Assembly: GCA_017506865.1 (NCBI GenBank)
Contig: JAFCMP010000490.1
Location: 248,001-312,000, forward strand
Origin: Tribonema minus
Taxonomy: Eukaryota; Sar; Xanthophyceae; Tribonematales; Tribonemataceae
Length of the DNA: 64,000 bases
Reading direction: 5' to 3'
The notes under the pieces are model-generated. The model saw only the letters and a program-made list of their open reading frames with translations, searched no databases and was not told where the DNA came from. Each line of letters begins with the position of its first letter. Position 1 is the first letter of the stretch. Both the position numbers and the translations under genes were made by a program. Below are positions 5,036-24,950 of this stretch, piece by piece.

Positions 5036-5064
5036 TGCTGTATAATATTTGATATTATACAGCA
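5036..5064. repeat. Terminal palindrome, left end (hairpin-telomere candidate)
   Basis: Thirteen-base arms TGCTGTATAATAT and ATATTATACAGCA flank a TTG centre, giving a perfect hairpin exactly at the element boundary. The same palindrome, inverted, is the last 29 bases at the other end. Sites for telomere resolvases are palindromes of this general size, and the element encodes a resolvase-like protein; a functional link is inferred. Confidence 0.8.
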
Positions 5065-5316
5065 CTGGGGTATGTATGTGTATATACGGGGGGTCGGTAC
5101 TGTATATATCCAATACCCCCCCCACCCCCTCGTACTGTATATATCCAATACCCCCCCACCCCCTCGTACTGTATATATACAATACCACCCCCAACCCCTC
5201 ATACTGTATGTATACAATACCACCCCCACCCCCTCGTACTGTATATATCCAATACCCCCGCCCCCAATATATATGTATCCAATACTCCCCGCCCCATCGG
5301 CTACTGTATATTGATG

Positions 5317-5342
5317 CTAGGGTTAGGGTTAGGGTTAGGGTT
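5317..5342 (+). repeat. Telomere-like (TTAGGG) tract in left TIR
   Basis: Four consecutive CTAGGG/TTAGGG units lie inside the left TIR; a degenerate mirror copy is at 24643-24669. Confidence 0.9.
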
Positions 5343-5630
5343 CACATGACACGGGCGATCGCTAGTTCTCGGCGCCGCACGCCGGCGGGGCCCTCAGACA
5401 TGACGCTCGGCGACGGCCGCCGCTGTGATGACGCGGCAGCTGTATGTTGTATGTATGTTGTATGTTGTATGTTCAGAAGTTCGACGCGGGCGAGTTCTCG
5501 GCGCCGCACGCCAGCGGGGCCCTCAGACATGACGCTCGGCGACGGCCGCCGCTGTGATGACGCGGCAGCTGTATGTTGTATGTATGTTGTATGTTGTATG
5601 TTCACTTTAAATGTTGCGAGTAGACAAACA

Positions 5631-6026
5631 ATGGACTACACGCTCACGGTGCGCTCACGCGATGCAGTCAACGCGTTCGACGCGCCTTGCCAATTTGAAG
5701 TGCAGGTGCCGGACATGCCGATCGGGCCGTACCGCGCATCCGTCTCGTTCATCGCCCCCTCGCTGACGGCGACGGTCGCGTACGCTCTGCAATTCAGCGC
5801 GCCGGAGATCGCGCGGTGTCTCGACACGTCGACCGCGGGCAGCGACGGCTGGGTGACGGTCGCACTCGCCAGCACATCGGACAGCACGCAGGGCACGTTC
5901 TACTGTGACAGAGTGCCGCGCCGTCTCAAAGTGCGCGTCCTGATTCCCTCGTCCCTTGCGCTCGCGGTTACTCTCGGGCATCATTTCATTACGATCGATT
6001 TCAAGAACGTTCAAGATTGTGAGTAA
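5631..6026 (+). CDS. Small PLV protein, possible minor virion protein
   Basis: A 131-residue protein starting MDYTLTVRSRDAVNAF. The frame stays open upstream through the TIR repeat, but that part is repeat sequence and the first sensible ATG is at 5631, just inside the TIR. The predicted protein is rich in alternating hydrophobic residues typical of beta strands (YRASVSFIA, FHYC-like turns, LKVRVLIPS, HFITIDFKN) and has no signal peptide or membrane segment. It converges with the major capsid gene, ending 30 bases from that gene's stop. The beta-rich composition and position beside the capsid genes suggest a virion component, but I recognise no family. Confidence 0.7.
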   Translation: MDYTLTVRSRDAVNAFDAPCQFEVQVPDMPIGPYRASVSFIAPSLTATVAYALQFSAPEIARCLDTSTAGSDGWVTVALASTSDSTQGTFYCDRVPRRLKVRVLIPSSLALAVTLGHHFITIDFKNVQDCE

Positions 6027-6056
6027 TAAGAAGAACCATTCTCATTCACATTTCAC

Positions 6057-7358
6057 CTAACCTAAACTGCTACCATGATCGACCCGGTCGAGCCACCCGG
6101 TCGAGCCATCGATGTGGTACTGGGCATCCGCCTCGCAGAAGCTATCGATGTTGACACCGTGAGGAGCGGCTGAAAAAACGATCTCACATACCAGCGCGTT
6201 GGCGCTCGTACTGTGACCACTGACGAGCTTCTGTTGCGAGAAAACATCCAATTCTGAAGCGATCATGAACGATCCTTCAACTCTCGTCGGTGTTGGGGCC
6301 ACGCTCGTGTCAAGTGTCCATGAATCAGATGCGAGGAGTCCACATGTGGACTCCGATGCAGGATTGCTGAAAACTCGCGTCGCTTCTAAGTAGGCCGGAA
6401 TCGCCTGCGCGCCACATTGGATCGGGACGGTCGTCACCCAGCTACCCCCAACTCTGACAGCAAACTGACGCAAATTGTTCCTCAACCTCTGGGTGACTGA
6501 ACTCGCAGAGATGTTGTATTCCGTCGCGGCCTCCCTTTGGATGATGATGAGTGATTTCATACTGCTCACCCTACTCAGTACCATGAGAGAGTTGCTCAGA
6601 GCCCCTGCTTGATGTATCGTCCTATACGTTTTCCATTGTGACGAGGACCAGTCATACCTATTGCCGGTCAAACCTCGATTCTGATCCGCCGCTGAATCGA
6701 CGAGCGTTATGTAGCTACAGTCCAGTGTGACGTTACTAAGTGAAACCGTCGCAGAAGTTGCAGGGACTGTGCCCCCGCTCGCGATCGCAGTTGCCGCGCT
6801 GGCGACCTCTATGTCAAGCCTTAAGGCGGACGAAAGCGCATGAATGGGCAACATTCTATCCGTGTTGGAAAGTAAGCCGATTATCGACAACAAAGGAACA
6901 CTATACTGTACGGAGGTCACTGCAGCCGCGTTTTGCACTGGTGATCGCAGTCTGGTTGGGTCACTGCCTAGGAGAATGCTGTCCCGCGTTCTCACCATGT
7001 CCTGCGAGCTGCAAAGGTCCCGCAGCGCGGCATGTAGGGCGTTGTAATTCGTAATTTGCTCAAGTTGCGAACTTCCCGCGCTACTCCACAGGGTGAGTGT
7101 CTGAATCCAGTTATATCCGTGAGCACCCCATGTAGGCGCCGTACCCCCATTTAAGCCTACATTAACTTGAAATGTAAGCATTGTATTCGCACAATCCAAC
7201 CAACAGTTCCTCGCACCACAATTCGCGATGTCGATCGAAAAAATTGATCCCGGGGCAAACGAGGTACCAGACACACAAGGTGAGCTAAATCTGGAACTCA
7301 GGGCAGAGCAGCTCACTGGCCGGAGCTGTGGGTAGCTCAAGGATGCCGGAACGCTCAT
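6057..7358 (-). CDS. MCP: Major capsid protein (PLV double jelly-roll)
   Basis: A 433-residue protein that would build the hexameric capsomers of the icosahedral shell. Features matching PLV/Polinton major capsids are the early FAPGSIFSIDIAN and NCWLDCANTMLTFQV segment, followed by YNWIQTLTLWSSAG, LEQITNYNALHAALRDL and a second beta-rich half (SVPLLSIIGLLSN, LPIHALSSALRLDIEV). Length is within the family range of roughly 400-600. It is intact with one ATG start. Its gene is the first of a minus-strand block of virion genes (pVI-like, minor capsid), although a hairpin insert now lies directly upstream and may have displaced its promoter. Confidence 0.88.
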   Translation of the reverse strand: MSVPASLSYPQLRPVSCSALSSRFSSPCVSGTSFAPGSIFSIDIANCGARNCWLDCANTMLTFQVNVGLNGGTAPTWGAHGYNWIQTLTLWSSAGSSQLEQITNYNALHAALRDLCSSQDMVRTRDSILLGSDPTRLRSPVQNAAAVTSVQYSVPLLSIIGLLSNTDRMLPIHALSSALRLDIEVASAATAIASGGTVPATSATVSLSNVTLDCSYITLVDSAADQNRGLTGNRYDWSSSQWKTYRTIHQAGALSNSLMVLSRVSSMKSLIIIQREAATEYNISASSVTQRLRNNLRQFAVRVGGSWVTTVPIQCGAQAIPAYLEATRVFSNPASESTCGLLASDSWTLDTSVAPTPTRVEGSFMIASELDVFSQQKLVSGHSTSANALVCEIVFSAAPHGVNIDSFCEADAQYHIDGSTGWLDRVDHGSSLG

Positions 7359-7419
7359 CTGCTTTCTGATCTACACATCCTAAACATTTTAATGTCTGAT
7401 ATTCAAGTTTTTATACTGA

Positions 7420-7852
7420 AGGATCCGCTCCGCTCATCCGCGACCCTGAAACTCAAAAAGCAACCGAGCACTTATGCTATAGTAAAGTCTCCAGGGCAGA
7501 ACAGGTGTTGAAGTTGGGTAATGGCATGCTGTAGCCCTATGTCAGGGGCATCTGCTGACTACTCACTTGTTGAAGTTGATGTTGTTCCTGATGTGATAGT
7601 GTACTTCAACGGTGATATTCAGACTTCAACTTCATGCCAACTTCAACTGTCATATCACTGCTCAGCGTGCAATAGCACGGCTCCACCCGTCTCAACTTCA
7701 ACAACCAACAGCTCTTCTGGTGCGTCTAAGTGAGGCCAAGAATCTACCATTATCAAACTTCAACAGTTTGAGTGTCTTGACTGACTTCACTATAGCATAA
7801 GTGCTCGGTTGCTTTTTGGGTTTCAGGGTCGCGGATGAGCGGAGCGGATCCT
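7420..7852. mobile_element. MITE-like hairpin insert between capsid genes
   Basis: Two arms of about 70 bp (7420-7489 and 7783-7852) are near-perfect inverted repeats beginning GGATCCGCTCCGCTCATC. They enclose about 290 bp dotted with ACTTCAAC/GTTGAAGT motifs that resemble host introns and repeats rather than virus genes. ACTG occurs next to both outer edges, a possible short target duplication. No protein is encoded. It separates the major capsid gene from the pVI-like gene and abuts the latter's stop codon. Confidence 0.7.
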
Positions 7853-8204
7853 ACTGCTGCTGTAAATTCGCAAGATCTTGAACGCTCTGGCCTGCCGTGT
7901 GCGGCTGCTTGAAGCCATGCAAGATGCTCGGAACCGCGCGCGTCGCGCTGTTCGCAAAGCCTGCTGCCGCACTGATGCCGTTCATCGCGAGCCCCGCCTC
8001 GGGGCCCAGAGCCGCGGACGCCAAACCCTGGGCGAGTGGATTACTGGCGACGTCACGGACGATTCCCGAGCCTATGCGCAATATAGGCAATGCGTTTTTG
8101 CCAATCCACTTCGACGCCGCTGAGATCCCCCGCGGGAGTGTCTTGCCCAAAAACCTTTGCGCAGGCCTGAAGATTTTCTTAGCGAGCCATCCGCCGAAGC
8201 CCAT
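7851..8204 (-). CDS. pVI-like small amphipathic protein
   Basis: A 117-residue protein beginning MGFGGWLAKKIFRPAQRFLG, Gly/Ala/Lys-rich with an amphipathic amino end and a hydrophobic middle (LAQGLASAALGPEAGLAMNG). Small proteins of this kind sit near the capsid genes of PLVs and adenoviruses and are thought to act as internal cement or membrane-active virion proteins; that role is inferred from composition and position. The stop codon lies at the border of the hairpin insert, so the original carboxyl end may have been longer. It lies just downstream of the minor capsid gene on the same strand. Confidence 0.65.
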   Translation of the reverse strand: MGFGGWLAKKIFRPAQRFLGKTLPRGISAASKWIGKNALPILRIGSGIVRDVASNPLAQGLASAALGPEAGLAMNGISAAAGFANSATRAVPSILHGFKQPHTAGQSVQDLANLQQQ

Positions 8205-8238
8205 GTGTAATAGTTTGCTAGAATGCTACATTTTATTC

Positions 8239-8995
8239 TCACATGGGGGCCGTCAGGCTGCCGGGGTGCACTATGCGAAGGTCGCGCACGCCCGTTGCGA
8301 GCTGCGAGAACTTGATCATGGCATTAAATGGCAGGCTAGCCAGTAAACCACGCCCAGCGTCGTCAAAAAGGCTAACGCGGAATTCAGCGACGCTTCGAGC
8401 GTCGATGAGCCCTCCTTGCACGGCTTGTGTGTCGATGTAGTGCAGCACGCCCAAGGGTCCGACGTTGACTTGCACGGAGGCGAGCAGCCCCCTCCGGCGA
8501 TTGGCCGAGGCGTCGAGTGAACTGTTCTGCAAACTGGTGAAGACATTGATGCAGTGTGTTGAACTGAGATCAACATTATAAGCGCTGCTGATCTGCAAGC
8601 CGCTGCTGCCCTCATCAATCTGCAGCACCGCGCACATGCTTTCCGTGATCACCATGGTGGCGGCGCTCGCGAATGTGATCCTTGAAGTGATCGAGTTTGA
8701 AGCTCACGCTGCGCGTCGGGAACGCGGCAGCCAGCGCCGCGGTCAAGCTGGTAGCACTGTAGTTGCCGGACGGCAGCGTCACGCTGACACCAGAGATGGT
8801 CAGAGTGTCGCAGTACAGGTTGATACACATCTGCGTATTTGCAATGGACAGCGAATGCAAGCTGATGCGCAGGCTGTAGCCATCCATAGCGTGTATCGCG
8901 TGGGGCAGCACAACCTGCACGTCGTTGTGATATGCGCTGGCGCGCACGCACTGCGAAGAGTCGATATAGATGTTGTCAGGCTGCGGTTGTTGCAT
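8239..8995 (-). pseudogene. mCP: Penton-like minor capsid protein, frameshifted
   Basis: Two overlapping frames (8615-8995 and 8239-8655) together form one protein of about 250 residues. The first half has YSLRISLHSLSIA and LPSGNYSATSLTAALAAAFP, and the second has RITFASAATMVI, SAYNVDLSSTHCINVFT and FRVSLFDDAGRGLL. The order P-x-GNY-x-A-x-SL, then ITFxS, then S-x-YxVDL, then FxVSLxDD is that of the single-jelly-roll penton of Polintons and PLVs, which would occupy the five-fold vertices. The frame changes by one base near 8690-8700. Without that change the family pattern continues in register. It could be a true mutation, a sequencing indel or, less likely, programmed frameshifting. Confidence 0.8.
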
Positions 8996-9155
8996 CGCGC
9001 TTCTGCTGTGCCTTAAGCAATATCTTTTCAGCCTCGCGTAGCTGTTTGGCCTTCGTCTTGCGAATGTTGTCCCTCACCAGTCTCAATTTAGCAGGCGGGA
9101 TGTCAGAGCAGCCGCCGAGAAACTTGTCAAGGTCCACTTCCACGATGCTGTCCAT
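8976..9155 (-). CDS. Small charged PLV protein
   Basis: A 59-residue protein starting MDSIVEVDLDKFLGG, with a Lys/Arg/Glu-rich helical second half (LRDNIRKTKAKQLREAEKIL-like). An in-frame ATG at 9173 is an alternative start. It overlaps the start of the minor capsid gene by about 20 bases on the same strand and is divergent from the gene at 9194. I recognise no family. Confidence 0.55.
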   Translation of the reverse strand: MDSIVEVDLDKFLGGCSDIPPAKLRLVRDNIRKTKAKQLREAEKILLKAQQKRDATTAA

Positions 9156-9193
9156 TATTTTGTTACAGTACATTGTAGATAAAAAAGCACGCG

Positions 9194-9598
9194 ATGACAC
9201 GCTCGGACGCCCAGAAAGCTGCCTTCGACAAATGCTTGGCCAGCCGCAAAGCATCGCTAGAGGCCAAGGCGAAGGCCGTAGAAGACGCTAGACAGGCGGA
9301 GACCGCGCCGCCGGCACCCATCGCCGAGGCTGCGCCGCCGCCGCCGGTGCAGCTCGCGCCGCCGCCGCCGCCGGTGCAGCTCGCGCCGCCGCCGCCGCCG
9401 CCGCCGCCTTCTTCTGATAGCGGCTCCGACATTTCATTTATCGACGCGGAGGACGTCCTCGAAAAAATTCATGCCCAAACTGGTGAGATGCAAGACCTGC
9501 GCGATGAGCTCGCGGCACTCCATGCCGGCCAGGGCGTGATCTGCGACGACCTGCAGAAGGCGCACGTCAGAGCCGCACACGCGATTAATTTCGTGTGA
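9194..9598 (+). CDS. Proline-rich PLV protein
   Basis: A 134-residue protein with three parts: a charged helical start (MTRSDAQKAAFDKCLASRKA), a low-complexity centre of APPPPPVQL repeats at about residues 38-75, and a helical carboxyl end (EDVLEKIHAQTGEMQDLRDEL) able to form a coiled coil. It begins a plus-strand block that continues with the packaging ATPase 17 bases downstream. Function is unknown; polyproline linkers joining helices are common in virion scaffold proteins. Confidence 0.7.
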   Translation: MTRSDAQKAAFDKCLASRKASLEAKAKAVEDARQAETAPPAPIAEAAPPPPVQLAPPPPPVQLAPPPPPPPPSSDSGSDISFIDAEDVLEKIHAQTGEMQDLRDELAALHAGQGVICDDLQKAHVRAAHAINFV

Positions 9599-9615
9599 GC
9601 TGAGTAAAGGACACG

Positions 9616-10419
9616 ATGCGCAAGTTGCCGGACTTGGAGAGCCGCTTTCCAAAAGTACAATCCGTGACGTTCAAATACATCAGTATGGTGCCATTTATTC
9701 TTACATTGAGTGCCAAGGTGAACGCCGGGAAGAGCTATCTGGCCGTGGCACTCATATCATTGATGCAGCGCGAGGGCTCCATAACACACACGTGGGTGCT
9801 CTCGCCGACCGCATCATCAAACCAGATCTACCGCAATATAGTCACAGATGAGCACATGGACAGAGTACATGACGACCTCTCTGCGCCGGCGGTGTGGAAC
9901 ACGCTGAAAGCAATACAGGGTGAGATGGAGGCGATAACAGCACAGTACGAGGCCGACCTCAGATACGCAACTGCTCACCATAAATTCACCTCTGGCGCCG
10001 CTGTGAACTTCGTGGATGAGCGCCTTCTGGATAGCCGCGGGTTCATGCCGTGCACGCCGCGCACGCCGTCGTATTGCATTCTCGTCGATGACGCGCAGGC
10101 CAGCCCGCTGCTGTCGCGCGCCAAGGCCAATCCGTTCCTCAATGCAGTCCTGCGTCACAGACGTATGGCACGGTTCGGCGTCAGCTTCGTGTTGGTGAGT
10201 CAAACGGTAAAAGGCTTGGCAAAATCGATACGCACAAATACCAGTCATTGGGCATTTTTCAAAACGCTGAACAAGCGGGAGATCGAGGAGTGCTATGATG
10301 AAGTGAGCGGCTTCTGCGAGCAGGAGCATTTTGAGAAATTGCTGCGACTGTACACGCTAGAGCCGTACGGTTACCTCTGGGCCGATATTCCCAGACAACA
10401 GTTGAAAAATAGCTTTTAA
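9616..10419 (+). CDS. Genome-packaging ATPase (FtsK/HerA, A32-like)
   Basis: A 267-residue motor that would pump virus DNA into the capsid. A Walker A-type loop AKVNAGKSY is encoded at about 9712-9738, a Walker B strand CILVDDAQ at about 10075-10100, and a sensor-like segment FGVSFVLVSQTVKGL follows. This order (P-loop, long helical insert, hydrophobic strand ending DD, then S-Q-T) and the length match A32-like ATPases of PLVs, Polintons and giant viruses. The first Gly of the classical P-loop is replaced by Ala. The stop codon is followed at once by the ATG of the next gene, indicating a tightly packed block. Confidence 0.88.
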   Translation: MRKLPDLESRFPKVQSVTFKYISMVPFILTLSAKVNAGKSYLAVALISLMQREGSITHTWVLSPTASSNQIYRNIVTDEHMDRVHDDLSAPAVWNTLKAIQGEMEAITAQYEADLRYATAHHKFTSGAAVNFVDERLLDSRGFMPCTPRTPSYCILVDDAQASPLLSRAKANPFLNAVLRHRRMARFGVSFVLVSQTVKGLAKSIRTNTSHWAFFKTLNKREIEECYDEVSGFCEQEHFEKLLRLYTLEPYGYLWADIPRQQLKNSF

Positions 10420-12039
10420 ATGTTTGACAAAGGGCAAGTCAACATGAGCCGCAAGGTGATGGTGCGCCGCAAACGGGCCAAGGCTGTGCCCATAGCCAAA
10501 AAAAGGAAAAAGGTACTGCTCAAACACATCAACAGGTCTCAAATTATTAAGGTGCGCGTCAATGTGAAAACTGGGGGCGGGGGCGGCGGCGCGCCCGTGT
10601 TCATACCCAGCGGAGGCGGCGGTGGACAGACGGTTGTGAGTACACCCGACAGCAGTGGCGCGCTGCTGCAGTACCTGGCAGGTATGCAAATGCCGCCGCC
10701 GGCTCCGGTCACTGCGGCCTCGGGCCCCACACAGACTCTGGTTGCGCACCAGATGGATCAAGTGCCACCTGATCCGTGGCAGTACACAGAGGCCGGCACG
10801 CAGACTGCGCAAGACGCCGTATCATCTGCTGACATGGTGACGCAGACGAGGGGGCCGGCGACGTGGGGCGTCGGCACACAGACACGCGCGCCGGCGACAC
10901 GCGACTCGGCAGCGCAGGCAGTGCGCGCCCCACACACGGGCGAGGCCGAGACACAGACGCGCGCGCCGGCGATACGCGACTGGTCAGCACAGGCCGTGCC
11001 CTCCATTACGGCGGCCGCGACACAGGCGGCGGCGAGCACCGGCGACGCGGCGGTACAGACAGACGTCGGCGGCGCCGAGGAGACGAAGAGCGGCGACACA
11101 GAGCCCCAGAATGCAACGGCGGTCGTTGAAGACAACGCAGCAGGGCTGGCGCCCGTGGTGCAGGACCAGCTCGCGCTCGTCGTCGCGCCGTTGCGTGATG
11201 AGATCGCGAATTTGCGGATGGGCTTCGGCGACGCGCAGGGCGTGCTGCGTGACATCGCGCAGGCCCACATCAGTGCGCAACGCGCATTCATCGGTCGGCG
11301 AGAGGAGGTGGCACAAGTGAACGCTGTATTCGACCGCCTCAATCGTGAGGTGGCGCAGCCACACACGACGCCGCCGCCTGTCTTCAACAACCAGCTCGCG
11401 CTGCTACCGCCGGGCCGCGTCACCGGCGGCCCCCCCTCACCCATGGCCGAGGTCCCCGCACCCCCCGCCGAGGCCCCCCCAGCCGCGCCCCCCGCCGCAG
11501 ATGAGGACGTCCCCGCGGCTGACACCCCCGCGGCTGACGCCCCCGCGGCCGACGCCCCCGCCCCCGCGCCCTTCATGGAGTTCAATGCGCCGCCCCTCGC
11601 CCCCACCCCCGCCCGGCAGCAGCGACATCCCGCGCGCCCCGCCGTGGTGGCACCCCCCGCGGGTGATGCGGCTGAACCTGCGTACGCGCCGGGCGCAGAG
11701 CCAGAACGGAAGAAGGTCGCTCAATTGGCACCACTGCTAAAGGGCGCACGCATCTTCTACAGGGCCAAAAAGGACACGGCGGCACAGATGGGCGTGCTGC
11801 GGTTGCAGGACCGCCTCAAGAAATTCGGCGATCCGGTGCCACTTGACCTCCAACAAGAGATCCTGGATGCGTTCAAACATGTCCAGAACGGCGTGCGACG
11901 CGATCTCAAGGTGAGCAGAACGCCGGACGAGGCGGCGAACGCACAGCGACGCAGAGAGCAGCGCGCGGCGACCGCGTCCGACACGCGCGAGAGGGCGCGC
12001 GAGGCGCGGCGCAGACCAGCTCAGCAATTCTACGTTTAA
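10420..12039 (+). CDS. Large basic and Pro/Ala-rich virion protein candidate
   Basis: A 539-residue protein. The amino end is strongly basic (MSRKVMVRRKRAKAV from a second ATG at 10444), suited to DNA binding. The middle has repeats of the form TQTRAPATRD / AQAV at about residues 145-205, then a predicted helical region, then a long Pro/Ala tract (APPAEAPPAAPPAADED). The carboxyl end is a charged globular segment (APLLKGARIFYRAKKD ... RLQDRLKKFGDPVPLDL) closing with an Arg-rich tail. I recognise no family. It sits between the packaging ATPase and the fibre-like gene, consistent with an internal virion protein. Confidence 0.75.
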   Translation: MFDKGQVNMSRKVMVRRKRAKAVPIAKKRKKVLLKHINRSQIIKVRVNVKTGGGGGGAPVFIPSGGGGGQTVVSTPDSSGALLQYLAGMQMPPPAPVTAASGPTQTLVAHQMDQVPPDPWQYTEAGTQTAQDAVSSADMVTQTRGPATWGVGTQTRAPATRDSAAQAVRAPHTGEAETQTRAPAIRDWSAQAVPSITAAATQAAASTGDAAVQTDVGGAEETKSGDTEPQNATAVVEDNAAGLAPVVQDQLALVVAPLRDEIANLRMGFGDAQGVLRDIAQAHISAQRAFIGRREEVAQVNAVFDRLNREVAQPHTTPPPVFNNQLALLPPGRVTGGPPSPMAEVPAPPAEAPPAAPPAADEDVPAADTPAADAPAADAPAPAPFMEFNAPPLAPTPARQQRHPARPAVVAPPAGDAAEPAYAPGAEPERKKVAQLAPLLKGARIFYRAKKDTAAQMGVLRLQDRLKKFGDPVPLDLQQEILDAFKHVQNGVRRDLKVSRTPDEAANAQRRREQRAATASDTRERAREARRRPAQQFYV

Positions 12040-13467: not shown

Positions 13468-14816
13468 ATGGATGAGACAAGAGCTGAGAGTATAACTGCG
13501 GCGGCTGATGAAGCGGGGGGTGGCAAGGCGAGCGACGTTGCTGATGCGGTCCTCCTCAGGAAACTGGCCCTCATCTCATTATTCAAATTAGAAGACAGCG
13601 CCGACATCAAAAAGAGAGCTCCGTTCCCTTTAGAGTACCACGAGAAGGAGGACGTGTACACCTTTCAGGGGCGGGTTGTGCTGGCCCAAAGTGAGGTCTT
13701 TGGCGTGCTCGTTCAGGAATGGGACGACATGCCGTCGTCTACAGGAATGCACCGCTTCTTCACATATCTAAAGGGTCGCTACATAGGCATTAGTATGTCA
13801 CAGGTGCAGAAGTTCCTTCGCTCAGATCCAGACCACCAGACATGGTTCAGTAGAAGGAAAACCGCAAAAGCTTTACCCACACTTCCACTGAGGCCGTGGC
13901 ACACGGTCAGTATCGACTTCGGCTACCTAGAGGGTGGCACGTTTGACCAAGAGGGGGAGAAAGTGAACAAAAAACTAAAATTCCCATACCTCTTAGTGTT
14001 GGTGGACGATTTCACCAAAAAAATTCGAGCTCGTCTGACGTCTACGCGCGAGAGCGGCTCGCACGTCGCGGAGATGCAGAGCATGATCGACGACATGCCG
14101 CAACCACCGCGTTACTGTCGTTCAGACAACGAGTTCCGCAGCGCCGCGTACTCTGCGTTCCTGAAAGCAAACGGTATCAAGCCTATCTACTCGTTGCCTG
14201 GGAACCCTGCCGGAAACGCTCGAGCGGAAACGGCCGTTAAGTCGGTGAAGGTGCTCCTACACAGCTACTGGCAGAATGACAAGTATTCTATCCACCGCGA
14301 CCTCCGCAAGAACCTGGCGCGCGTCCTCAACATAATAAATAATTCACAGAGTTCGGTCACGGGCTACAGGCCGAACGATTTAGATGACCCACTCTGCCCT
14401 AAGGCCGTCATCGCCACTGCGCGCAAGCGCATGGCGGACTTGTACCAGGGCAAACTGGTGGATGAGCGTTTCAACTATGTTCTACGCCACGCGACACAGT
14501 GCGTATCGACAACGCCGCGCTGCACACCAACGTGCGGCAAGCTCGCAAAATCGGCCAGTACAAATCAAGTCATAACGCCAGCTTCAGCCCAACCGAGTAC
14601 AAGGTGGACCAGGCTCGCGAGGACAACACGGTCACGGTTGAAGAAATACCTAACAGAGTCTTTTTGAGAGGTCAATGTCTATTTGTGCCGCAGGTCACGG
14701 ACAGAGCCAGCTTTGTCACGGTCTGGCAGGGGGAGCGTGATAGCGCGGGCATACCGCAGGGCCGTGAGGACCCGTTCGGCTACGGCGAGCGCAAGCGGCC
14801 GGCGCAGGGGACGTGA
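13468..14816 (+). pseudogene. Retroviral-type integrase (rve), frameshifted
   Basis: The gene encodes an integrase of the Polinton/PLV type, which would join the element's TIR ends to host DNA. After an amino-terminal region (YIGISMSQVQKFL) the catalytic core shows the DDE triad: SIDFGYLEG (about 13910), RSDNEF (about 14118) and NARAETAVK (about 14214). The first frame stops at 14667. A one-base change at about 14495-14500 shifts to a frame that continues to 14816 with an integrase-like tail (SFSPTEYKVDQARED ... RVFLRGQCLFVP). The core is intact and only the carboxyl DNA-binding part is split. The missing base could be a true mutation or a sequencing error. Confidence 0.85.
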
Positions 14817-17744
14817 TCATGTCTGACGCTGCACGCAGTGTTTGCGTATGTCCCCTCCGTCCCTGAGCTGCTGCAACAGCGCGTTGACTTGTGCGATCTC
14901 TGACATGCTCAACACCTCGAACTCTGAGGGGCCGGTCTTCACGAGGGCCTCCGTCTGATCAACATGCCTCCTCTGCGCAATCTCGATCAAGTGGTCCAGC
15001 TCGTTCTTGACGTACTTCAGATGGGAGCTGATCGGCCACATGTCGGCGTTTAAGTGCGTCATATCGTCGTCCACGCCGTACTTCACCTCGAGGAAGGTCT
15101 TAGTCACCAAGCGGTCTATCGCGTAGTGTCTGCTAGACTTTGAATGGACGTACGTCACGCCGCTGTCGTACTTGACGCCGGCATTGCACACCGCCTCCTT
15201 GACTAACGCGACCAACATCTTGCCCGTCGCGTTGTGATTGGTTGCCTTCGCGTTGGCGCCAGCTCTGATGACTTGAATCTTGTACGCTGACACGAGCTCT
15301 GCGAACTGGCGCGCCGTGATTTCCACCGTCGGTTCTTGAACAACATCAGACGCGACGATGCTGTGCAGGACCTGAATGTAGTGCGGGGTGTTCGCCTGCA
15401 GCGCCTCCTTGTACAATTCAGTCTTCGGCCTCGCGCCCTGAAAGTTGCTGATCGTGATGGGCAGGTCCCGCAGGTACATGAACCAGGACATGATGGCCTG
15501 TTCATCCTCTATGAGCTTCCAGAACTCGTTAAAGTACTTCTCGTTGCCGATCAGCTCGTCCGATGCTCTCACCAGCCACATGCGCCGCTCAGCCTCGCCG
15601 GACTGTACGTTCGCCGCGGCGCCGGCGCCGCTGCTGGACGGATTCGCCACGCCCCAGAGCCGCGTGAAGTTGGCAACGTCGCCAGTGTCAACGCCCTTGA
15701 AGGTCAGCTCCTTGACCTTGTCTGTTATGATCTTCTTGATGGCCTCTGCGTACTCGTACGTCTCACTGCACTTGACCTCGGGCAAGGACACCAGCACCTT
15801 TCCGTTCTGCTTGGCGTTGAAGTGACCGAACGCGGTCTTGGCGTTGCAGGCGCTGAAGAACCGCCTGCCGACTACGAGAGCGCCGAAGAACTCATCGACG
15901 TACACCGTCTTCCTGCAGCCTTGCTTTCCCTGCGTCACGATGGCCACTCCACTCAAAACCCCCGGTCGCTGGATGATCTGCGCCTGCCACTGAAGCTGAA
16001 AGTTCAGGCAGTCGGCGTTGTGGTCGACGAGCACGGAGTTGTGGAAGATCATCCTGTCCACCTTCGCCTGACTGTACTCGTACTTGCCCAGCAGCCGTTC
16101 CGCTCGCAAGCCGCACCACGTGTTGTACGTGTCTGGCGGCACGGGCAGCGGCGGAGGGATGCACTGCATGCCGCCGTGAGTGCGACGGGACACGTGCTTC
16201 ATCCAGAAGCAGGTGAAAGGCGTCGTCGTCGGCGTCAATCTCACGGGGCCTACTACGACGGGCGGAAGGTTGCTGTACGCGGTGTCGAATTGCGCATTGC
16301 TGTGCACGAAAGGCGCCTCGTGCGCGCCTCTGAAGGTGTAGCACACGGCATCCTGCATGCACACAGCGTGATCTCTAGTGAAGACCAGGACCCTGTCGCA
16401 GTCCGTGATGTCACCTGTAAAATCCAGAGCCTGCTCTCGCCGGTTCCACTCGCCCACGGCCAGCACGGCTTCGCTGTCATCCGCGTACTCCACGACGTCC
16501 ACGGCGCCGCATCCGCAGAGAACCTTCACGTCAGCCTCGCACTTCGGCGACCAGTCTGGCGTGAAGGCCAGATGGAAGCGGTACTTGCCGACGACAGGCT
16601 TCCCGTGCGGGCACTCGCCTTCTCTGTCCAGCGTCAATGAGTACTTGACCCTGCGCCCGTCGCACGCACGGGAGTCGGCGCTCAGAGCGGACGCGTCGCA
16701 CGTGAGCACGCGAGCGACGAGCCGCGACAAGTCTGCGCACTGACGGACTGAGTTCTGCTCGGTCTCAGGAGGCGGCGGCGGGGGCAGCTCCACGTGAGCG
16801 TGCATGGCGCGGAGCGCCTCGATGGTGTAATGCGGCACGTCCTTGGTGGTGATGCGCACGACGAAGCCGGTGGCGCGGAGCACGGCGGCCTGCATCTGCA
16901 CGAGATCATCCTCCGTAGGACACGCCTGGGGCATGAAGCCGTCGTGCATGGGCGTGCGGGGGACCAGCGCCTGCTTCTTCGCTGCTGCGTACATGGGGCG
17001 CAGGCAGGCGCACTCCAGGCCTTGCATCACGAGGCTGGCGCAGCTGAGCTCGGGATATTTGCGGCCCTGCTCAATGCAGAGCTGCAGCACCGAGGGGTTG
17101 CGTTCGCAGATGAGCTTCACGCCCAGTCCCGCAGCCTCCGACAGAGCGCGCAAGACGGGGTGGTCCACCCTCGCGTCGAGTACTTCCTCGTCGTTGTGCT
17201 CGACGACCGCGGCTCCGCCGTTGGAGACTCGCTGAAGCAGAGTCTTGGCCTGCTCCACCGTGATGCCCAGGTCCTCAGAGATCGTCAACCGCGTCTCTTT
17301 GGAGTTTTCAGCGTAGGCTCTGATGGGCGCGTATTCCTTTTCATCCATCCCAAGCTTGCGTAGATACTGCCAGTTGAGCGTAGGATGGCAACACTCGATG
17401 TCTACGTCACTCAGTTTGCCGTGAGAGGCCACGTGGCGCACAGGTCGCGGAAAGTTCTGCAACGAAGGCCCGACGGGCGTCAGCCGTCCGAACTCCATCG
17501 AGTCGTCGTGCTTGTATTTAACTTTGACGCATCGCCCCGCGTCGGCGACGTGGGACACCTTCGCGATGTACGCCCGGAGCCGCGTGCGCAGTTGCTCGCG
17601 GTTGCGCGTCTTATAATCACGGCAGCTCTCGATGCGTGCCATGAGGTCGCCGTCCTCCAGGAGCGCGCACAGCGCCTCCACGTTCACGGGCTCGTAAACC
17701 CACATATTCTCCAGCTGCGGCCCCATGAACTCTGGCAAGACCAT
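14817..17744 (-). CDS. TV-Pol-like DNA polymerase fused to SF3 helicase
   Basis: A 975-residue replication protein from ATG 17744; an upstream in-frame ATG at 17852 lies in repeat sequence. The amino half has polymerase-like motifs: LSDVDIECCHPTLNWQYL (motif A-like, near 17366-17410) and PMHDGFMP (motif C-like HD, near 16940). This is as in the family-A-like TV-Pol found in virophages and PLVs. The carboxyl half is a superfamily 3 helicase: Walker A TQGKQGCRKT (about 15907-15936), a B-like strand GKVLVSLPEVK, a motif C-like LWGVANPSS, and RRM as a possible arginine finger. It would unwind and copy the virus genome. It converges with the integrase and diverges from the origin-like repeats at 17.8-18.3 kb. 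Confidence 0.85.
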   Translation of the reverse strand: MVLPEFMGPQLENMWVYEPVNVEALCALLEDGDLMARIESCRDYKTRNREQLRTRLRAYIAKVSHVADAGRCVKVKYKHDDSMEFGRLTPVGPSLQNFPRPVRHVASHGKLSDVDIECCHPTLNWQYLRKLGMDEKEYAPIRAYAENSKETRLTISEDLGITVEQAKTLLQRVSNGGAAVVEHNDEEVLDARVDHPVLRALSEAAGLGVKLICERNPSVLQLCIEQGRKYPELSCASLVMQGLECACLRPMYAAAKKQALVPRTPMHDGFMPQACPTEDDLVQMQAAVLRATGFVVRITTKDVPHYTIEALRAMHAHVELPPPPPPETEQNSVRQCADLSRLVARVLTCDASALSADSRACDGRRVKYSLTLDREGECPHGKPVVGKYRFHLAFTPDWSPKCEADVKVLCGCGAVDVVEYADDSEAVLAVGEWNRREQALDFTGDITDCDRVLVFTRDHAVCMQDAVCYTFRGAHEAPFVHSNAQFDTAYSNLPPVVVGPVRLTPTTTPFTCFWMKHVSRRTHGGMQCIPPPLPVPPDTYNTWCGLRAERLLGKYEYSQAKVDRMIFHNSVLVDHNADCLNFQLQWQAQIIQRPGVLSGVAIVTQGKQGCRKTVYVDEFFGALVVGRRFFSACNAKTAFGHFNAKQNGKVLVSLPEVKCSETYEYAEAIKKIITDKVKELTFKGVDTGDVANFTRLWGVANPSSSGAGAAANVQSGEAERRMWLVRASDELIGNEKYFNEFWKLIEDEQAIMSWFMYLRDLPITISNFQGARPKTELYKEALQANTPHYIQVLHSIVASDVVQEPTVEITARQFAELVSAYKIQVIRAGANAKATNHNATGKMLVALVKEAVCNAGVKYDSGVTYVHSKSSRHYAIDRLVTKTFLEVKYGVDDDMTHLNADMWPISSHLKYVKNELDHLIEIAQRRHVDQTEALVKTGPSEFEVLSMSEIAQVNALLQQLRDGGDIRKHCVQRQT

Positions 17745-17809
17745 GGCAGTCGCGGATGATGACAATAGATACAATAAACAGTGCAGACCGCGTGCACAGT
17801 CCGCCGGAG

Positions 17810-18032
17810 TGACACGTGGTGTTTGTCGGCTTGAACCTCCGAGGCACTCCATTCACCCACAGACATTCCAGGGGGAATGGTTCCATCTGTAAGAGGGTGG
17901 CTGGCACTTGGTGACACCGGTGACACCCGGGTGACACGTGGGTGACATGTGGTGTTTTTGGGCTTAACCCTCCGAAGCACTCCATTCACCCACAGACATT
18001 CCGGGGGGAATGGTCCCATCTGTAAGAGGGTG
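17810..18032. repeat. Tandem 126-bp duplication upstream of the replication gene
   Basis: Two copies start near 17812 and 17938. Each contains CTCCATTCACCCACAGACAT, GGGGGAATGGT and CCATCTGTAAGAGGGTG with few differences. GTGACAC-type iterons lie between and after them (GTGACACCGGTGACACCCGG...). Confidence 0.88.
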
Positions 18033-18065
18033 ACACGGTGACACCAGATTTCTAATATTCTCATA

Positions 18066-18390: not shown

Positions 18391-18633
18391 GTGCCTTACT
18401 CTGTCAAAGATCAGGCGAAGGCGGGCGGAGCGCGGTACAACCCCGCGAGCAAGCAGTGGTACGTCGACCGCGCCGCCGCGTACGAGCTGTGCCGCGAGTA
18501 CGTGCCGGACGGCGCGGGGTACCCATGGGAGCGGCGCGACTGGCAGCCGCAGTACGGGTACGAGAGCAGGGACGAAGCGAAGGCGGCCGGGTGCAAGTAC
18601 GATGTCGCCGCGAGAAGCTGGTACCAGCTCTGA
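18391..18633 (+). CDS. Two-module DUF5710-like protein, no ATG start
   Basis: An 80-residue frame with two copies of the short DUF5710-type module: YSVKDQAKAGGARYNPASKQWYV and YESRDEAKAAGCKYDVAARSWY share the pattern D-x-AKA-x-GA/C-x-Y/W-x(4)-K/R-x-WY. Such modules are seen in primases, conjugation proteins and mobile-element proteins, perhaps in nucleic-acid contexts. The frame is closed by a TAG at 18376, and no ATG lies between that stop and the first module. Start must be GTG (18391), CTG (18385), or come from an upstream exon or a frameshift. It diverges from the polymerase-helicase gene. Confidence 0.6.
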   Translation: MPYSVKDQAKAGGARYNPASKQWYVDRAAAYELCREYVPDGAGYPWERRDWQPQYGYESRDEAKAAGCKYDVAARSWYQL

Positions 18634-18765
18634 GAGTTACCTTGCTGCCGTATGTTGTATGTATGTTGTATGCTGTATGTCAGCAGACACGCAACAGCAA
18701 GATGGTTGATGTCGGGAAAGAATTGTCATTTACTGCGATGGCGCAATGGTCCCGCGGCGCCGCGC

Positions 18766-19164
18766 TCAGTCGGCACGCCTGCGCAGTTCGAGCAGCGCCA
18801 CTGTCGCGTCCATGAGCTCCCCTCGCAGGCTCGAGTTTTCGCCAGCATGGGAGGGGATGTCGTCTTCACCGCCCTCGCCGATGGCAGCGCACAGCCGCTC
18901 GAGTACGGCGATGATCTGCGAGTTGCCGCTATTCACGGCGTCGGTGAGCTTCGCGACGGCTTCACACAGCGCCGGCGTCGGCGTGGACCCGGTGGGCACG
19001 CAAGCTTGCAGGCCAGCCAGGCGCTGCTCCGCGAGGAGCAGCTTGATGGCAGTGTTGACCTCGTTCTGCGTCCTCGGCGTCGGCGTGGACCCGGTGGTCA
19101 CGCATGCTTTCAGGGCAGCCACGCGCTGCTCTGCAGTGTTGACCTCGTTCTGCGTCGTCGACAT
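18766..19164 (-). CDS. Small repeated PLV protein, unknown
   Basis: A 132-residue protein from MSTTQNEVNTA. It contains two copies of a unit TQNEVNTA...EQR-x-A-x-L-x-AC-x-TGSTPTP and a helical carboxyl half (LTDAVNSGNSQIIAVLERL). A more distal ATG at 19227 would add 21 residues. It converges on the DUF5710-like gene and diverges from the resolvase gene across the 15-bp iterons. Function is unknown. Confidence 0.6.
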   Translation of the reverse strand: MSTTQNEVNTAEQRVAALKACVTTGSTPTPRTQNEVNTAIKLLLAEQRLAGLQACVPTGSTPTPALCEAVAKLTDAVNSGNSQIIAVLERLCAAIGEGGEDDIPSHAGENSSLRGELMDATVALLELRRRAD

Positions 19165-19257
19165 GGTCGATGTGCGTCGTGGTAGTGATGGAGAGCGGCG
19201 TGCAGCGACAAGGATGAAACAATTCAATTAGGACGGCTGAAGTGATATTGTGCACCC

Positions 19258-19346
19258 CTCCGATCAGCGGCCCGTCCGATCAGCGGCCCGTCCGATCAGC
19301 GGCCCGTCCGATCAGCGGCCCGTCCGATCAGCGGCCCGTCCGATCA
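19258..19346. repeat. Six 15-bp iterons upstream of the resolvase gene
   Basis: GTCCGATCAGCGGCC repeats about six times head to tail with no spacer, 55 bases before the ATG of the tyrosine-recombinase gene. It sits between two divergent genes, so it may be an operator or a binding array. Confidence 0.85.
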
Positions 19347-19399
19347 GCGGGCCATTGTTTATTTCTCAGGAATATATCAATACATGGCATCCGCGCGTA

Positions 19400-20674
19400 A
19401 TGCCAACACAACCTCGCGAGCGTCGGACGAAAACCAAGAAGATGCAGTGGGCGAACGAGCGTCTGTCAAAAGAGCTCTATGATCTTGCCGTGGACAAGAT
19501 GCGAGGTCATGACGACTTCACACTGTTGAGGCCGGTCGTGGAGGAGTGGACGGGCAACAAACGCCGACCGTATCAGGAGCATGTGTTGCCGCTGGTCACG
19601 AGCTACAAGGAGGCTTGGGACTCCGCGAAGGCTAACATGACGAAGAACCAGTTCAAGAATTGGGTGAAGGACTCCGAGCAGAGGAAGACGCGTGATTGCA
19701 TCGACAAGAAGAGACGCGAGTTCACGGCGTACGCGGACAACACCATGAAGACGATAGTGTGTCAAGCGGGCAATTTCATGGAACAGGGCAGCCACCTGAA
19801 GCTCTTCTGGTCCTCCAAGCATGGCAACGGGCTCAATTTGACGCTATACAGAGACTGCGGCACGAAGCACGAGGATAATTTGCGCGAGCGGCAGACGGGC
19901 GAGGTGCTCAAGTATGACTTCGGACCCATGCTCTGCCACAGCATGGACGTGCTGGACAAGCTGCCCGGTCTCCGCGAGGTGATCCACGCACTGACGCTTG
20001 CGACCGCCCGCCGCAGCATCGAGGTACTAGACCCAGCCTTTGAGTACCGCGACGATGCCGATGACAATACCTCTGTCATAATCAACAAGCTCGCGAAGAT
20101 GCCCGACGGCTCGCAGCAGACGGAGTTCAAGGTTCAACTGCTGTGCAACAGGCAGCTATTCCACAATGGCCTGCAGTACGTGCGTGCGAACTGCGACGGC
20201 ACGACCGGCAAGTCGCGACAGCTGATTCGCAACAACGTCAACAACATGATGGCCGCACCGACGTACAGATTCGCAGACTTCGCCGCCCTCGTCGAGGAGC
20301 GCTTCAAGCGTCACTACACCGTGCACATCAACCGCCACATCGCTGTTGCGATACACGCGACTGTCAAGGGTGATGAGTTCTCTGTTCAGAACGCCAAGGC
20401 GCTGCTGGGCCACAGGAGCATAATGAGCTCGCTGTCATATGCGGACATGAAGCACGTGCCGCAGTGCGTCGTCAGCGTGTCGCCCCCGGCGGACGGCTCC
20501 GACGATGAGGACGAGGACCTCGAGAGCGTCGAGGCCGGCGCAGCGGCCGGCCTGCTGTCGCTGTTGCATGCTGACAAGAAGCAGCGCGTAGACGAGTTCA
20601 CCGCGCAGCTGGAGCGCCTGAAGGCGGGCGAGATCACCACCGCTGAGTACCAGCAGCTGGTCAGCGAAACTTGA
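19400..20674 (+). CDS. Telomere-resolvase-like tyrosine recombinase
   Basis: A 424-residue protein from ATG 19400; the longer frame upstream only translates the iterons. The catalytic set of tyrosine recombinases is visible in order: Arg in LATARRSIEVL (about residue 205), a beta-hairpin Lys in TEFKVQLL (about 244), HINR (309-312), LGH (335-337) and Tyr in SLSYADM (347). The segment ATxRRxIEVL is closer to protelomerases (TelN, TelK, ResT), where a G/A-RR-x-x-E-x-L helix carries the first Arg, than to phage integrases. Such enzymes cut palindromic sites and seal hairpin telomeres. The element's ends are perfect palindromes, supporting that role. An acidic tail follows (DDEDEDLESVEAG). An ordinary integrase or resolvase function cannot be excluded. 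Confidence 0.75.
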   Translation: MPTQPRERRTKTKKMQWANERLSKELYDLAVDKMRGHDDFTLLRPVVEEWTGNKRRPYQEHVLPLVTSYKEAWDSAKANMTKNQFKNWVKDSEQRKTRDCIDKKRREFTAYADNTMKTIVCQAGNFMEQGSHLKLFWSSKHGNGLNLTLYRDCGTKHEDNLRERQTGEVLKYDFGPMLCHSMDVLDKLPGLREVIHALTLATARRSIEVLDPAFEYRDDADDNTSVIINKLAKMPDGSQQTEFKVQLLCNRQLFHNGLQYVRANCDGTTGKSRQLIRNNVNNMMAAPTYRFADFAALVEERFKRHYTVHINRHIAVAIHATVKGDEFSVQNAKALLGHRSIMSSLSYADMKHVPQCVVSVSPPADGSDDEDEDLESVEAGAAAGLLSLLHADKKQRVDEFTAQLERLKAGEITTAEYQQLVSET

Positions 20675-21138
20675 GCGTGGGAGAGCATGGACTGTACATG
20701 AAACTTACATAGTGTGTGCCTTGCAGTCTGCTGCTGCCCCTTCTCTGTCTCAAAATGTCGTGTGTGTCTGCAAAACGCTTTCGCGCCAAATTCAACATAC
20801 ATACCCATCGGACCGGCCATGTGGGGGGTACGGAGCTTTGCTAAACAAAGAACACAAGAGCAGCGGGGTGGGCGAAGGCAGTGGCGTGAGCCAGAACCAG
20901 CAAGCAGCGCGGCAGCCGCACTATGGAGGTGAGATGTTAATCCGACGACCTTCACATCCCGCGTAGGTCGCTTCGCATGGACGAGGCATCAGTAGCATCA
21001 TTCGCAGCAACAGCGCCGCAGCCGAGGTAGGGAGCAGGCAGCAGTAAGCGAGATGCCAGACTCGCAAACATACAACATACAACATACATGCAACATACAG
21101 CATACTGATGTGTCTGTCCTTTGCCCCCTCTGCAGGCC
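20675..21138. other. Intergenic stretch, PLV
   Basis: No convincing gene. It ends with ACATACAAC-type repeats at 21066-21105, the same motif as in the subterminal array and at 18646-18680. Confidence 0.6.
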
Positions 21139-23320
21139 ATGGCAGAGGATGTGATATGGCTGGATCAGAGACAGAACAGAAACCACGGCGTCCGCTGCCT
21201 CTTCGAAGGGGATGGCGATCACGAGGCCGAGGTGCGCGCGGTCACTGATGCACGGGAAGCTGGAGCTATCAATAAACCGACGCACGACATCTACAGCACG
21301 GAACTGACCACAGCAGAGGCAGCGCTCTACCAGGCTCGCAAGGGCCCCGTCAGCTGCGTGTGGCTGCACGTCAGCGGCACCGGCGTCAAGGCTACCGTCG
21401 TTGCCAACATGCTCAAAAAAGTGCCGGGCCTTCTACGCCTCGAGTTTGTCAACCACTCACCCCCGCCTGCGAGGCAACAGATCGAAGCGGCAGCAGTGGC
21501 AGCAGGACCAGCAGCACCGGCGGCGACCGCAGACGAGAAGCGCGCTATGTGGCAGCTGGCCGCGGCGCACCTCGACATACGGCACGCAGCGCTGGACGCA
21601 GCCACCGTCGAGTGGCACATGCGCGAGATCTCCGACTTGGCCGAATTGCCTCTCAAATGGGCAAGCGCCGATGACGAGGACTCTGCCACCTACAAGTGGA
21701 TCACGTCTGACGTAGCCAGCCACATCAACGAGCACCGCATGACCACCCCGTTCGCGCAATTTGGCCGCGTGCTGTGTGGACCACGCGGCGGCGTTCATGC
21801 ACGACTTAGACTTCGCCAACGTGCAGAAGTGCATCGACCACGCATTGCGCATGACGGCGGAGTGGCGCACCAACGTCGCACCACCACCAGACAGCTTGTG
21901 CCGGACAGTGCAGGAATCTATCGGCGGTCTGCTCAACGACTGTGCGCGCATGCTGCAGCGGTCGCCCAGCCAGTGCGCAATCTCCGAGCATGCCAACAGG
22001 ACCATGGAGGCGGTATGCGGACGTGCGCTGGCTGCGCAGCGCCAGCTCGCCGAATCCGCAAACGACGACCGCGTCGCGGCATTAGAGCGAGAGGTGGCGC
22101 AGCTGCGGGCGCACGTGGACGTCGTGCGGGAGAACGTCTCCTCGGCGATCAGGCTGGCGGTGGAGAGGCCGCTGCGAGTGGAAATGCTAGCGGCGCAGCA
22201 GCGGACGGAACGCGTGGCGAAGGAGAGCGGGTGGCTAACCCTAACCCTAAAGAAAAAGCTGCTGATCTGCGAGGCGGAGCTCGCACACACGAAGACAGCG
22301 TTGGAGCGCAGCCCGCTCATGGCATCGCCCCTCGAAGACGGCGACGAACCGGCCAAATGTTTCGCCCTGCTCCGGTTGAAGACAAATAGCCTGTTGATTG
22401 CAGAGGAAAGAGTCAAGCTGCAGACACAGATAGCGGAGGCGTGGCGCCAGCGTGCGGTGGCAGCGGAAGCGGGCGCTGCGGCGGCGGCGGGCGGCGGCGC
22501 TGCGGCGGCGGCGGGCGGCGGCGCTGCGGCGGCAGCGGGCGACGGCGCTGCGGCGGGCGCTGCGGCGGCAGCGGGCGGCGGCGCTGCGGCGGCGGTGGGG
22601 GTGGGGGTGCATGCGGCGGGTGCTGCAGTGGGTTGTGCGCCATACCCTTACATTGAGGCGTTTGAGGCAATGGCGCACAAACAGGCACAGTTCAGAATTG
22701 AGATGCTAGAAATGGTCTCCGCAGCAGCAGTCAAGCGTCCAAACGCACAAGGCACTTCTGGTCTCAAAATGCGATTAGATGCCGCGATCGATCAGCCATC
22801 GAAGCGGCGCGCCCTCAAAATAATCACTGCTGCGCTCAGGGAGGATTGGCAGGAGGAAGCGGCGACGGACGCGGCGCCGGACGCCGCGGCGCCGGCGGCG
22901 TTGGACGCGACGCCGACGGCGATGGACATCGAGGAGACGCCGGACGCCACGACGCCAGCGGCGTCGGATGCGGCGCCGCCGCGTCCGGCGCTGCGTCCGT
23001 TGCCGTCGGCGCCGGCGGCGTTGGACGCGGCGCCGGACATGACGCCGACGGCGATGGACATCGAGGAGACGCCGGACGCCGCGGCACCGGCGGCGTCGGA
23101 CGCTGTGCCGACGGCGACGGAGGGGGTGGGGGTAGATGCGGCGGGCAGTGGCGATACAGTGGGTTGTGCACAACACCCTTACATTGAGGCGTTTGAGGCA
23201 GTGGTGCCTGCTGATGCACAGTTCAGAGATGCGATGCTTGAAGCGGTGCATTCAGTGGTAGTAGAGCATCCAGATGAACGCGGCACACGTCGTCTGAGCG
23301 CAAGAATTCAAAGGCAGTAA
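21139..23320 (+). pseudogene. Large Ala-rich coiled-coil protein, frameshifted
   Basis: Two frames form one protein of about 725 residues: MAEDVIWLDQRQNRN... from 21139, changing frame by one base near 21770-21780 into the frame ending at 23320. The first part ends ...PFAQFGRVLC and the second continues VDHAAAFMHDLDF. The middle is heptad-rich (DDRVAALEREVAQLRAHVDVV) and would form a long coiled coil. It is followed by Ala/Gly low-complexity tracts encoded by GCGGCGG repeats. Two related modules (GCAPYPYIEAFEAM and GCAQHPYIEAFEAV) end each low-complexity tract, a duplication. A telomere-like CTAACCCTAACCCTAA at 22235-22251 lies inside the frame and is translated as LTLTL. Function is unknown. 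Confidence 0.65.
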
Positions 23321-23532
23321 CAGTCGCACACCAAAGGCATGCTCTCATACACATAATGGGTCGGCCGAAGCAGCATGAGCTTGCCGAGAACAGAGTGAGA
23401 GCTGCGCTACGTATGGATTGGAAGGATGAACTGCTTCCTGACTCCATGCGTTGAGGACGAGGACGCTTGAATTGCACACTTAATGTACCAGTGATCAGGT
23501 GTTGACTGCCATCTTTGTCGCTGTGCAAAGTT

Positions 23533-24640
23533 GAACATACAACATACATACAACATACAGCTGCCGCGTCATCACAGCGGCGGCCGTCGCCGAGCGTCAT
23601 GTCTGAGGGCCCCGCCGGCGTGCGGCGCCGAGAACTCGCCCGCGTCGAACTTCTACAACATACATACAACATACAGCTGCCGCGTCATCACAGCGGCGGC
23701 CGTCGCCGAGCGTCATGTCTGAGGGCCCCGCCAGCGTGCGGCGCCGAGAACTCGCCCGCGTCGAACTTCTGAACATACAACATACAACATACATACAACA
23801 TACAGCTGCCGCGTCATCACAGCGGCGGCCGTCGCCGAGCGTCATGTCTGAGGGCCCCGCCGGCGTGCGGCGCCGAGAACTCGCCCGCGTCGAACTTCTG
23901 AACATACAACATACAACATACATACAACATACAGCTGCCGCGTCATCACAGCGGCGGCCGTCGCCGAGCGTCATGTCTGAGGGCCCCGCCGGCGTGCGGC
24001 GCCGAGAACTCGCCCGCGTCGAACTTCTGAACATACAACATACAACATACATACAACATACAGCTGCCGCGTCATCACAGCGGCGGCCGTCGCCGAGCGT
24101 CATGTCTGAGGGCCCCGCCGGCGTGCGGCGCCGAGAACTCGCCCGCGTCGAACTTCTGAACATACAACATACAACATACATACAACATACAGCTGCCGCG
24201 TCATCACAGCGGCGGCCGTCGCCGAGCGTCATGTCTGAGGGCCCCGCCGGCGTGCGGCGCCGAGAACTCGCCCGCGTCGAACTTCTGAACATACAACATA
24301 CATACAACATACAGCTGCCGCGTCATCACAGCGGCGGCCGTCGCCGAGCGTCATGTCTGAGGGCCCCGCCGGCGTGCGGCGCCGAGAACTCGCCCGCGTC
24401 GAACTTCTACAACATACATACAACATACAGCTGCCGCGTCATCACAGCGGCGGCCGTCGCCGAGCGTCATGTCTGAGGGCCCCGCCGGCGTGCGGCGCCG
24501 AGAACTCGCCCGCGTCGAACTTCTACAACATACATACAACATACAGCTGCCGCGTCATCACAGCGGCGGCCGTCGCCGAGCGTCATGTCTGAGGGCCCCG
24601 CCGGCGTGCGGCGCCGAGAACTCGCGATCGCCCGTGTCAT
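23533..24640. repeat. Subterminal tandem array, nine units
   Basis: Each unit has a conserved core of about 75 bp containing CAGCTGCCGCGTCATCACAG and GTGCGGCGCCGAGAACTCGC, joined by variable runs of ACATACAAC. Cores begin near 23558, 23673, 23802, 23931, 24060, 24188, 24311, 24427 and 24543. Long open frames across it on both strands are repeat artefacts. Confidence 0.93.
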
Positions 24641-24642
24641 GT

Positions 24643-24669
24643 GAACCCTAGCCCTAACCTTAACCCTAG
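24643..24669 (-). repeat. Degenerate telomere-like tract in right TIR
   Basis: AACCCTAGCCCTAACCTTAACCCTAG, the inverse of the left tract with substitutions. Confidence 0.85.
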
Positions 24670-24921
24670 CATCAATATACAGTAGCCGATGGGGCGGGGA
24701 GTATTGGATACATATATATTGGGGGCGGGGGGTATTGGATATATACAGTACGAGGGGGTGGGGGTGGTATTGTATATATACAGTATGAGGGGTTGGGGGT
24801 GGTATTGTATACATACAGTACGAGGGGGTGGGGGGGTATTGGATATATACAGTACGAGGGGGTGGGGGGGTATTGGATATATACAGTACCGACCCCCCGT
24901 ATATACACATACATACCCCAG

Positions 24922-24950
24922 TGCTGTATAATATCAAATATTATACAGCA
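24922..24950. repeat. Terminal palindrome, right end
   Basis: The same 13-base arms as at the left end around CAA, ending exactly where host exon sequence resumes. Confidence 0.8.

Follow-up and report, generated by a model that had tools for sequence, protein, structure and literature searches.

A telomere-resolvase-like enzyme, an rve integrase and terminal palindromes in probable Polinton-like viruses integrated in the Tribonema minus genome

We analyzed a 64,000-nucleotide stretch of the Tribonema minus genome (contig JAFCMP010000490.1, positions 248,001 to 312,000; the window), which contains an integrated element of 19,915 bp at window positions 5036-24950. The element is bounded by terminal inverted repeats (TIRs) at 5036..5591 (+ strand) and 24408..24950 (- strand), which share 96.2% identity across 557 aligned positions; on the right side, 129-bp repeat units extend further inward, from about 23534. 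The outermost bases of both TIRs form a 29-bp palindrome that belongs to neither strand in particular. From outside to inside, the left palindrome (5036..5064) reads TGCTGTATAATAT-TTG-ATATTATACAGCA, with 13-bp arms and the 3-nucleotide (nt) spacer TTG, and the right one (24922..24950) is its inverted copy. An earlier note on this sequence had described both as perfect and terminal, and this was confirmed: the two element ends were the only places in the window with a perfect palindrome whose arms reach 13 bp or more and whose spacer is 3 nt or less, and none was found in 15 dinucleotide-preserving shuffles of it. The element encodes a 424-amino-acid (aa) telomere-resolvase-like protein in an open ATG frame at 19400..20674 (+ strand) and a 399-aa rve (retroviral-type) integrase at 13468..14667 (+ strand; PF00665, 40.8 bits, cut-off 32.6). 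We propose, with a probability of roughly 0.6, that it is a virus of the Polinton-like kind with two end-processing enzymes: the rve integrase would insert the genome, and the resolvase would cut the terminal palindromes, probably forming hairpin telomeres.

The resolvase class had been read by the earlier note from the pattern R...K...HINR...LGH...Y and an ATARRSIEVL helix. In an alignment of seven family members, R205 (in ATARRSIEVL), K233, H309 and R312 (in HINR) and H338 (in LGH) were invariant. Y347, nine residues past H338, was present in six of the seven; the seventh, a frame on contig C290 (C290:864551-865477, L010), terminates right ahead of the position of the catalytic tyrosine. A profile alignment placed R205, K233, R312, H338 and Y347 in register with TelK R275, K300, R383, H416 and Y425, and profile comparison with hhalign gave a probability of 94.8% against seven phage protelomerases and of 1.1% against seven lambda-type integrases. 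Structure models were made of the window protein and of a remote relative. Both were of low confidence (pLDDT 58.7 and 55.1), with most of the alignment common to both; TelA, TelK and ResT ranked first, and XerA and lambda Int lay well below. An ordinary tyrosine integrase (lambda, Xer), whose appearance as the best structural match would by the earlier note have spoken against a resolvase, is disfavored by the 1.1% hhalign probability, by the lower structural Z scores and by the lack of any Phage_integrase row among the Pfam matches listed for the family.

Direct searches with the window protein were uninformative (one weak row each in PDB and PHROGs). A protein database search returned one Tribonema protein, as did the family profile, for which only the 7997 candidates with the most words in common were scored; among the viral contigs scanned for relatives, none was confirmed by tblastn. 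The family members on C235 and C50 match PF16684 under its curated cut-off. Since the window protein does not reach that cut-off, we call it resolvase-like and not a PF16684 member, and sequence comparison and modeling together support a divergent telomere-resolvase-like enzyme. The C235 and C50 loci (C235:781476-783959 and C50:276100-278570) are similar, each with two adjacent resolvase-type genes in opposite directions.

Across the T. minus genome, PF16684 had 52 matches, 26 of them over the cut-off alone and two more with their neighbors; as a control, a match was found in one of 14 named genomes. After merging, there were 48 resolvase-domain loci and 53 rve loci; 23 of the 48 had an rve locus within 15 kb, with about 0.5 expected under uniform placement. 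These paired loci, 12 of which exceed the PF16684 cut-off (two only with neighbors), are not independent, several being likely copies of one element family. Counted from the integrase side, a PF16684 match or a family member lies within 15 kb at 28 of the 53 merged loci, so that the presence of both enzymes in one virus, which the earlier note had expected to be unusual, is common here. Twelve strong PF16684 loci (70-102 bits) lie away from rve: C179, C90, C445, C59, C524, C112:1540650, C21, C181, C223 (two), C1:61959 and C346. These loci probably represent further telomere-resolvase genes, which may belong to phaeovirus-like elements.

Palindromes of 29 to 30 bp with TG...CA borders were present at all located ends of six T. 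minus elements with a resolvase-like gene, and their arms differ. Read from outside to inside, the arms are TGGAGTATAATAT at C92 and C110, TGGAACCATAGAT at both ends of the C2 element, TGCACACAAAGAT at three places on C290 and TGCACTGTAAGAG at the single located end of the C544 element. The C511 element has a 30-bp palindrome, TGAAATGGTGTAAAC/GTTTACACCATTTCA, at both ends; it was found through its rve gene, and the palindrome was noticed before the resolvase-like frame, whose product matches the family profile with 97.2% probability (E 4e-11). On its inner side the palindrome is followed by CT at all 12 sites, which cover six arm types. A pooled arm pattern had eight exact places in 158 Mb, all at C92, C110, C290, C490 and C544. 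With one mismatch allowed, four further places appeared, none palindromic, and a reversed control gave one. Single extra places from two further searches were set aside, as they were not palindromic, and so was a palindrome site at C528:488834, which by eye has no flanking duplication in the printed sequence. Maintenance of symmetry despite different arms suggests selection on the palindrome itself. The tie between palindrome and resolvase rests on positive cases. Of the loci considered as negative controls, as rve elements with no resolvase, C212 is truncated on its left side and shows no TIR within 3 kb, C531 has a retrotransposon-like frame within 3.5 kb, and C201 proved to carry a PF16684-matching gene.

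Identical 5-mers flank the elements on C2 (CAGTC), C511 (GACAA) and C290 (GCCGT), the chance of each such match being about 1/1024. The C290 duplication was read from the outermost of two right palindromes, a choice made after seeing the data, and the inner one has no match. Insertion by rve, as the earlier note had it, is supported by the 5-bp duplications of these three relatives; the window copy lacks such a duplication. The palindromic ends at C92:266953 and C110:11618 lie on separate contigs with a common flank, GTGGC, and opposite spacers. They are possibly one insertion split over contigs and were left out of the duplication count, as each contig has an rve gene. On C290, the left flank of about 1.5 kb (839516-841011) recurs inverted at 867285-868779, just outside the right palindrome, with 98.8% identity. 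Next to this copy come 44 bp of TIR end and then the third palindrome; copying through a hairpin-like junction could be the source of the arrangement.

Two solo palindromes, each with one arm mismatch and no element in the stretch of surrounding sequence that was read, lie between identical 5-mers, GTCGC at C509:778692 and ATGTG at C1:1240458. They look like excision scars. As the TIRs are inverted, the element would be flipped in place, not deleted, by ordinary recombination between its two ends. In contrast, the palindrome doubles as a direct repeat, and its use by a site-specific enzyme therefore predicts solo scars. The presence of terminal palindromes in six divergent gene-carrying elements, their maintained symmetry and the two solo palindromes indirectly support the palindrome as the substrate of the enzyme.

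The palindromes may instead be mere terminal sites for rve, or cruciforms at replication junctions that a different enzyme resolves, the role of the tyrosine enzyme being unrelated. Ends of rve elements typically have TG...CA borders with 5-bp duplications beside them, as in the three relatives; in the window, 4.2 kb separate the gene from the right palindrome, and no gene-less element could be shown to be free of palindromes. However, known rve ends to our knowledge require no 29-bp palindrome, and rve is not expected to yield solo palindromes. In C2, C92 and C511 the distance between the resolvase-like gene and a palindromic end is about 0.3-0.8 kb, and the nearest relatives of the enzyme act on palindromes, the N15 site lying about 165 bp from telN. 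We consider this explanation improbable.

Under the proposed reading, the resolvase would cut and rejoin DNA at the palindromes. At a TIR-palindrome-TIR replication junction it would seal each half as a hairpin, giving a linear free genome with closed ends. Such hairpin-ended free genomes are plausible, a strong and testable inference, and the class of the enzyme and its link to the palindromes are well supported. During insertion, the rve integrase would make its cut 3' of the palindrome's closing CA and attach this end to the host with a stagger of 5 bp; gap repair would copy the unfolded palindrome, leaving a whole palindrome at each integrated end. For release, the resolvase would cut both provirus palindromes and free the genome, and the host halves would rejoin to give one palindrome between two identical 5-mers, as at the two solo sites. 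The full cycle, in which a DDE integrase inserts by opening hairpin telomeres and the resolvase both excises the provirus as a closed-end linear genome and re-fuses the host hairpins, so that one 29-bp palindrome stays behind with the target duplications on either side, is offered tentatively, as less probable than its opposite. We found no description of such a two-enzyme cut-in/cut-out cycle in the literature searched.

A telomere-resolvase fold could also work as a site-specific recombinase. End-to-end recombination would then excise a circle with one palindrome and leave one in the host, with free genomes in the form of circles or concatemers and not hairpin-ended. This explains the solo palindromes equally well, and the odd-length sites with an asymmetric 3-nt center are nearer to recombinase sites than to classic resolvase sites. 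TelA and ResT are described as fusing hairpins and recombining junctions in vitro (PMC11271964, PMC12270096), the latter source reporting recombination of telomere junctions by ResT and a TelA mutant. Because of these activities, both release with re-fusion and recombinase excision have precedent, and the solo scars do not separate them. Tyrosine recombinases of Polinton-like viruses are, moreover, usually taken as integrases in the accounts consulted (PMC4642659, PMC12220804). On the other side, sequence and fold are closer to hairpin-forming enzymes than to recombinases, and a circle alone provides no linear ends, which rve needs. We regard recombinase excision as the main rival reading and as unlikely, though less so than a mere rve site.

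Several findings weigh against a resolvase that forms hairpin telomeres at these palindromes. The window protein gave no PF16684 row at E values up to 1, and its structural match comes from the low-confidence models described above. The site is 29 bp with a 3-nt center in five of six arm types, and TelA is reported to require specific 6-bp palindromic centers (PMC3558466); only the C511 30-bp site, the one even site among the six arm types with a fully palindromic 6-bp center, fits. C92 and C110 have the spacer in opposite orientations, as turnover of hairpins could produce, but at C490, C2 and C290 its orientation is the same at both ends. The odd, asymmetric centers are unlike known sites (PMC3558466). 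C235 and C50 showed no such palindrome within 1.5 kb on each side, and C201, with a PF16684-matching gene, had neither a TIR nor the shared palindrome in about 19 kb of flanks. No resolvase was found within 15 kb at 25 of the 53 rve loci. Finally, the target duplication to be expected after an rve insertion is not seen at the edges of the window copy (GTGTG on the left, TCGTG on the right).

The nearest known enzymes are the hairpin telomere resolvases (TelN and TelK of N15-like phages, TelA, ResT; PF16684), which share the register of the catalytic R, K, R, H and Y, give the best fold match and likewise have their palindromic site adjacent to the gene or not far from it. Compared with TelK, the window protein is shorter (424 versus 640 aa), and it is too divergent for PF16684 alone. 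Unlike in the classic systems, the sites here are odd in length (five of six arm types), stand at the ends of integrated elements and are paired with an rve integrase. Phaeoviruses (EsV-1, FsV-158 and Ectocarpus endogenous viral elements) are described as having a telomere resolvase and snap-back reads at an internal palindrome (PMC13236599; earlier for EsV-1, PMC2373305). By that description they are alike in being DNA viruses, with hosts in a related group of algae, that combine a telomere resolvase with a palindromic site; they differ in being giant viruses with the palindrome inside the provirus, not at its ends. Their integration, at CC dinucleotides, is there assigned to a tyrosine recombinase distinct from the resolvase, and not to rve with 5-bp duplications. 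Polinton-like viruses, as portrayed in PMC4642659, PMC12220804, PMC10120064 and PMC12721341, resemble the window element in size (about 20 kb), TIRs, a primase-helicase, candidate capsid and ATPase genes and their endogenous state in protists. In contrast, those accounts present rve (with 6-bp duplications) and YREC as alternatives to each other for integration. The strings "hairpin" and "palindrom" have no occurrence in the main texts of these four papers. Among the titles and abstract openings listed, in a search without bioRxiv preprints and most subscription journals, we found no report of a telomere resolvase in Polinton-like viruses, the phaeovirus work being nearest.

The pairing of resolvase and rve would offer an answer to the question of how those Polinton-like viruses that have no protein-primed polymerase maintain their ends, and it would give rve-integrated viruses a release route. 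If true, small eukaryotic viruses would join bacteria, phages and the giant phaeoviruses as users of hairpin-telomere chemistry. The findings suggest a route, unexpected in a eukaryotic virus of small size, by which a linear genome could be maintained, inserted and released, and the idea is testable because the T. minus genome holds many copies and candidate scars.

The window element is a probable integrated virus of the Polinton-like kind, a label kept at that strength because the capsid and ATPase matches are weak. A 1011-aa primase-helicase-like protein is encoded at 14817..17852 (- strand; DUF5906, 35.5 bits, cut-off 27.6; phage primase PHROG, E 5.5e-5), and the open reading frames of the window include no second frame of polymerase size. 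The candidate packaging ATPase (9616..10419, + strand, 267 aa) matched a terminase PHROG (E 5e-4) and, under its cut-off, Pfam AAA_22 (E 0.044). The candidate major capsid protein (6057..7358, - strand, 433 aa) had no PDB match and was recognized through a 63% identical environmental relative, P0003, which matches Capsid_N (PF16903) with E 0.0016, under its cut-off. Tandem 16-bp repeats lie at 19255-19366, immediately upstream of the resolvase-like gene. Telomere-like TTAGGG repeats are present about 280 bp from the ends, with four units at 5318-5342 in the left TIR and a decayed copy at 24645-24669 in the right TIR. Relatives of the candidate capsid protein (P0003, P0004 and P0006; 61-63% identical) occur on short environmental contigs, and the element therefore has kin outside the T. 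minus genome.
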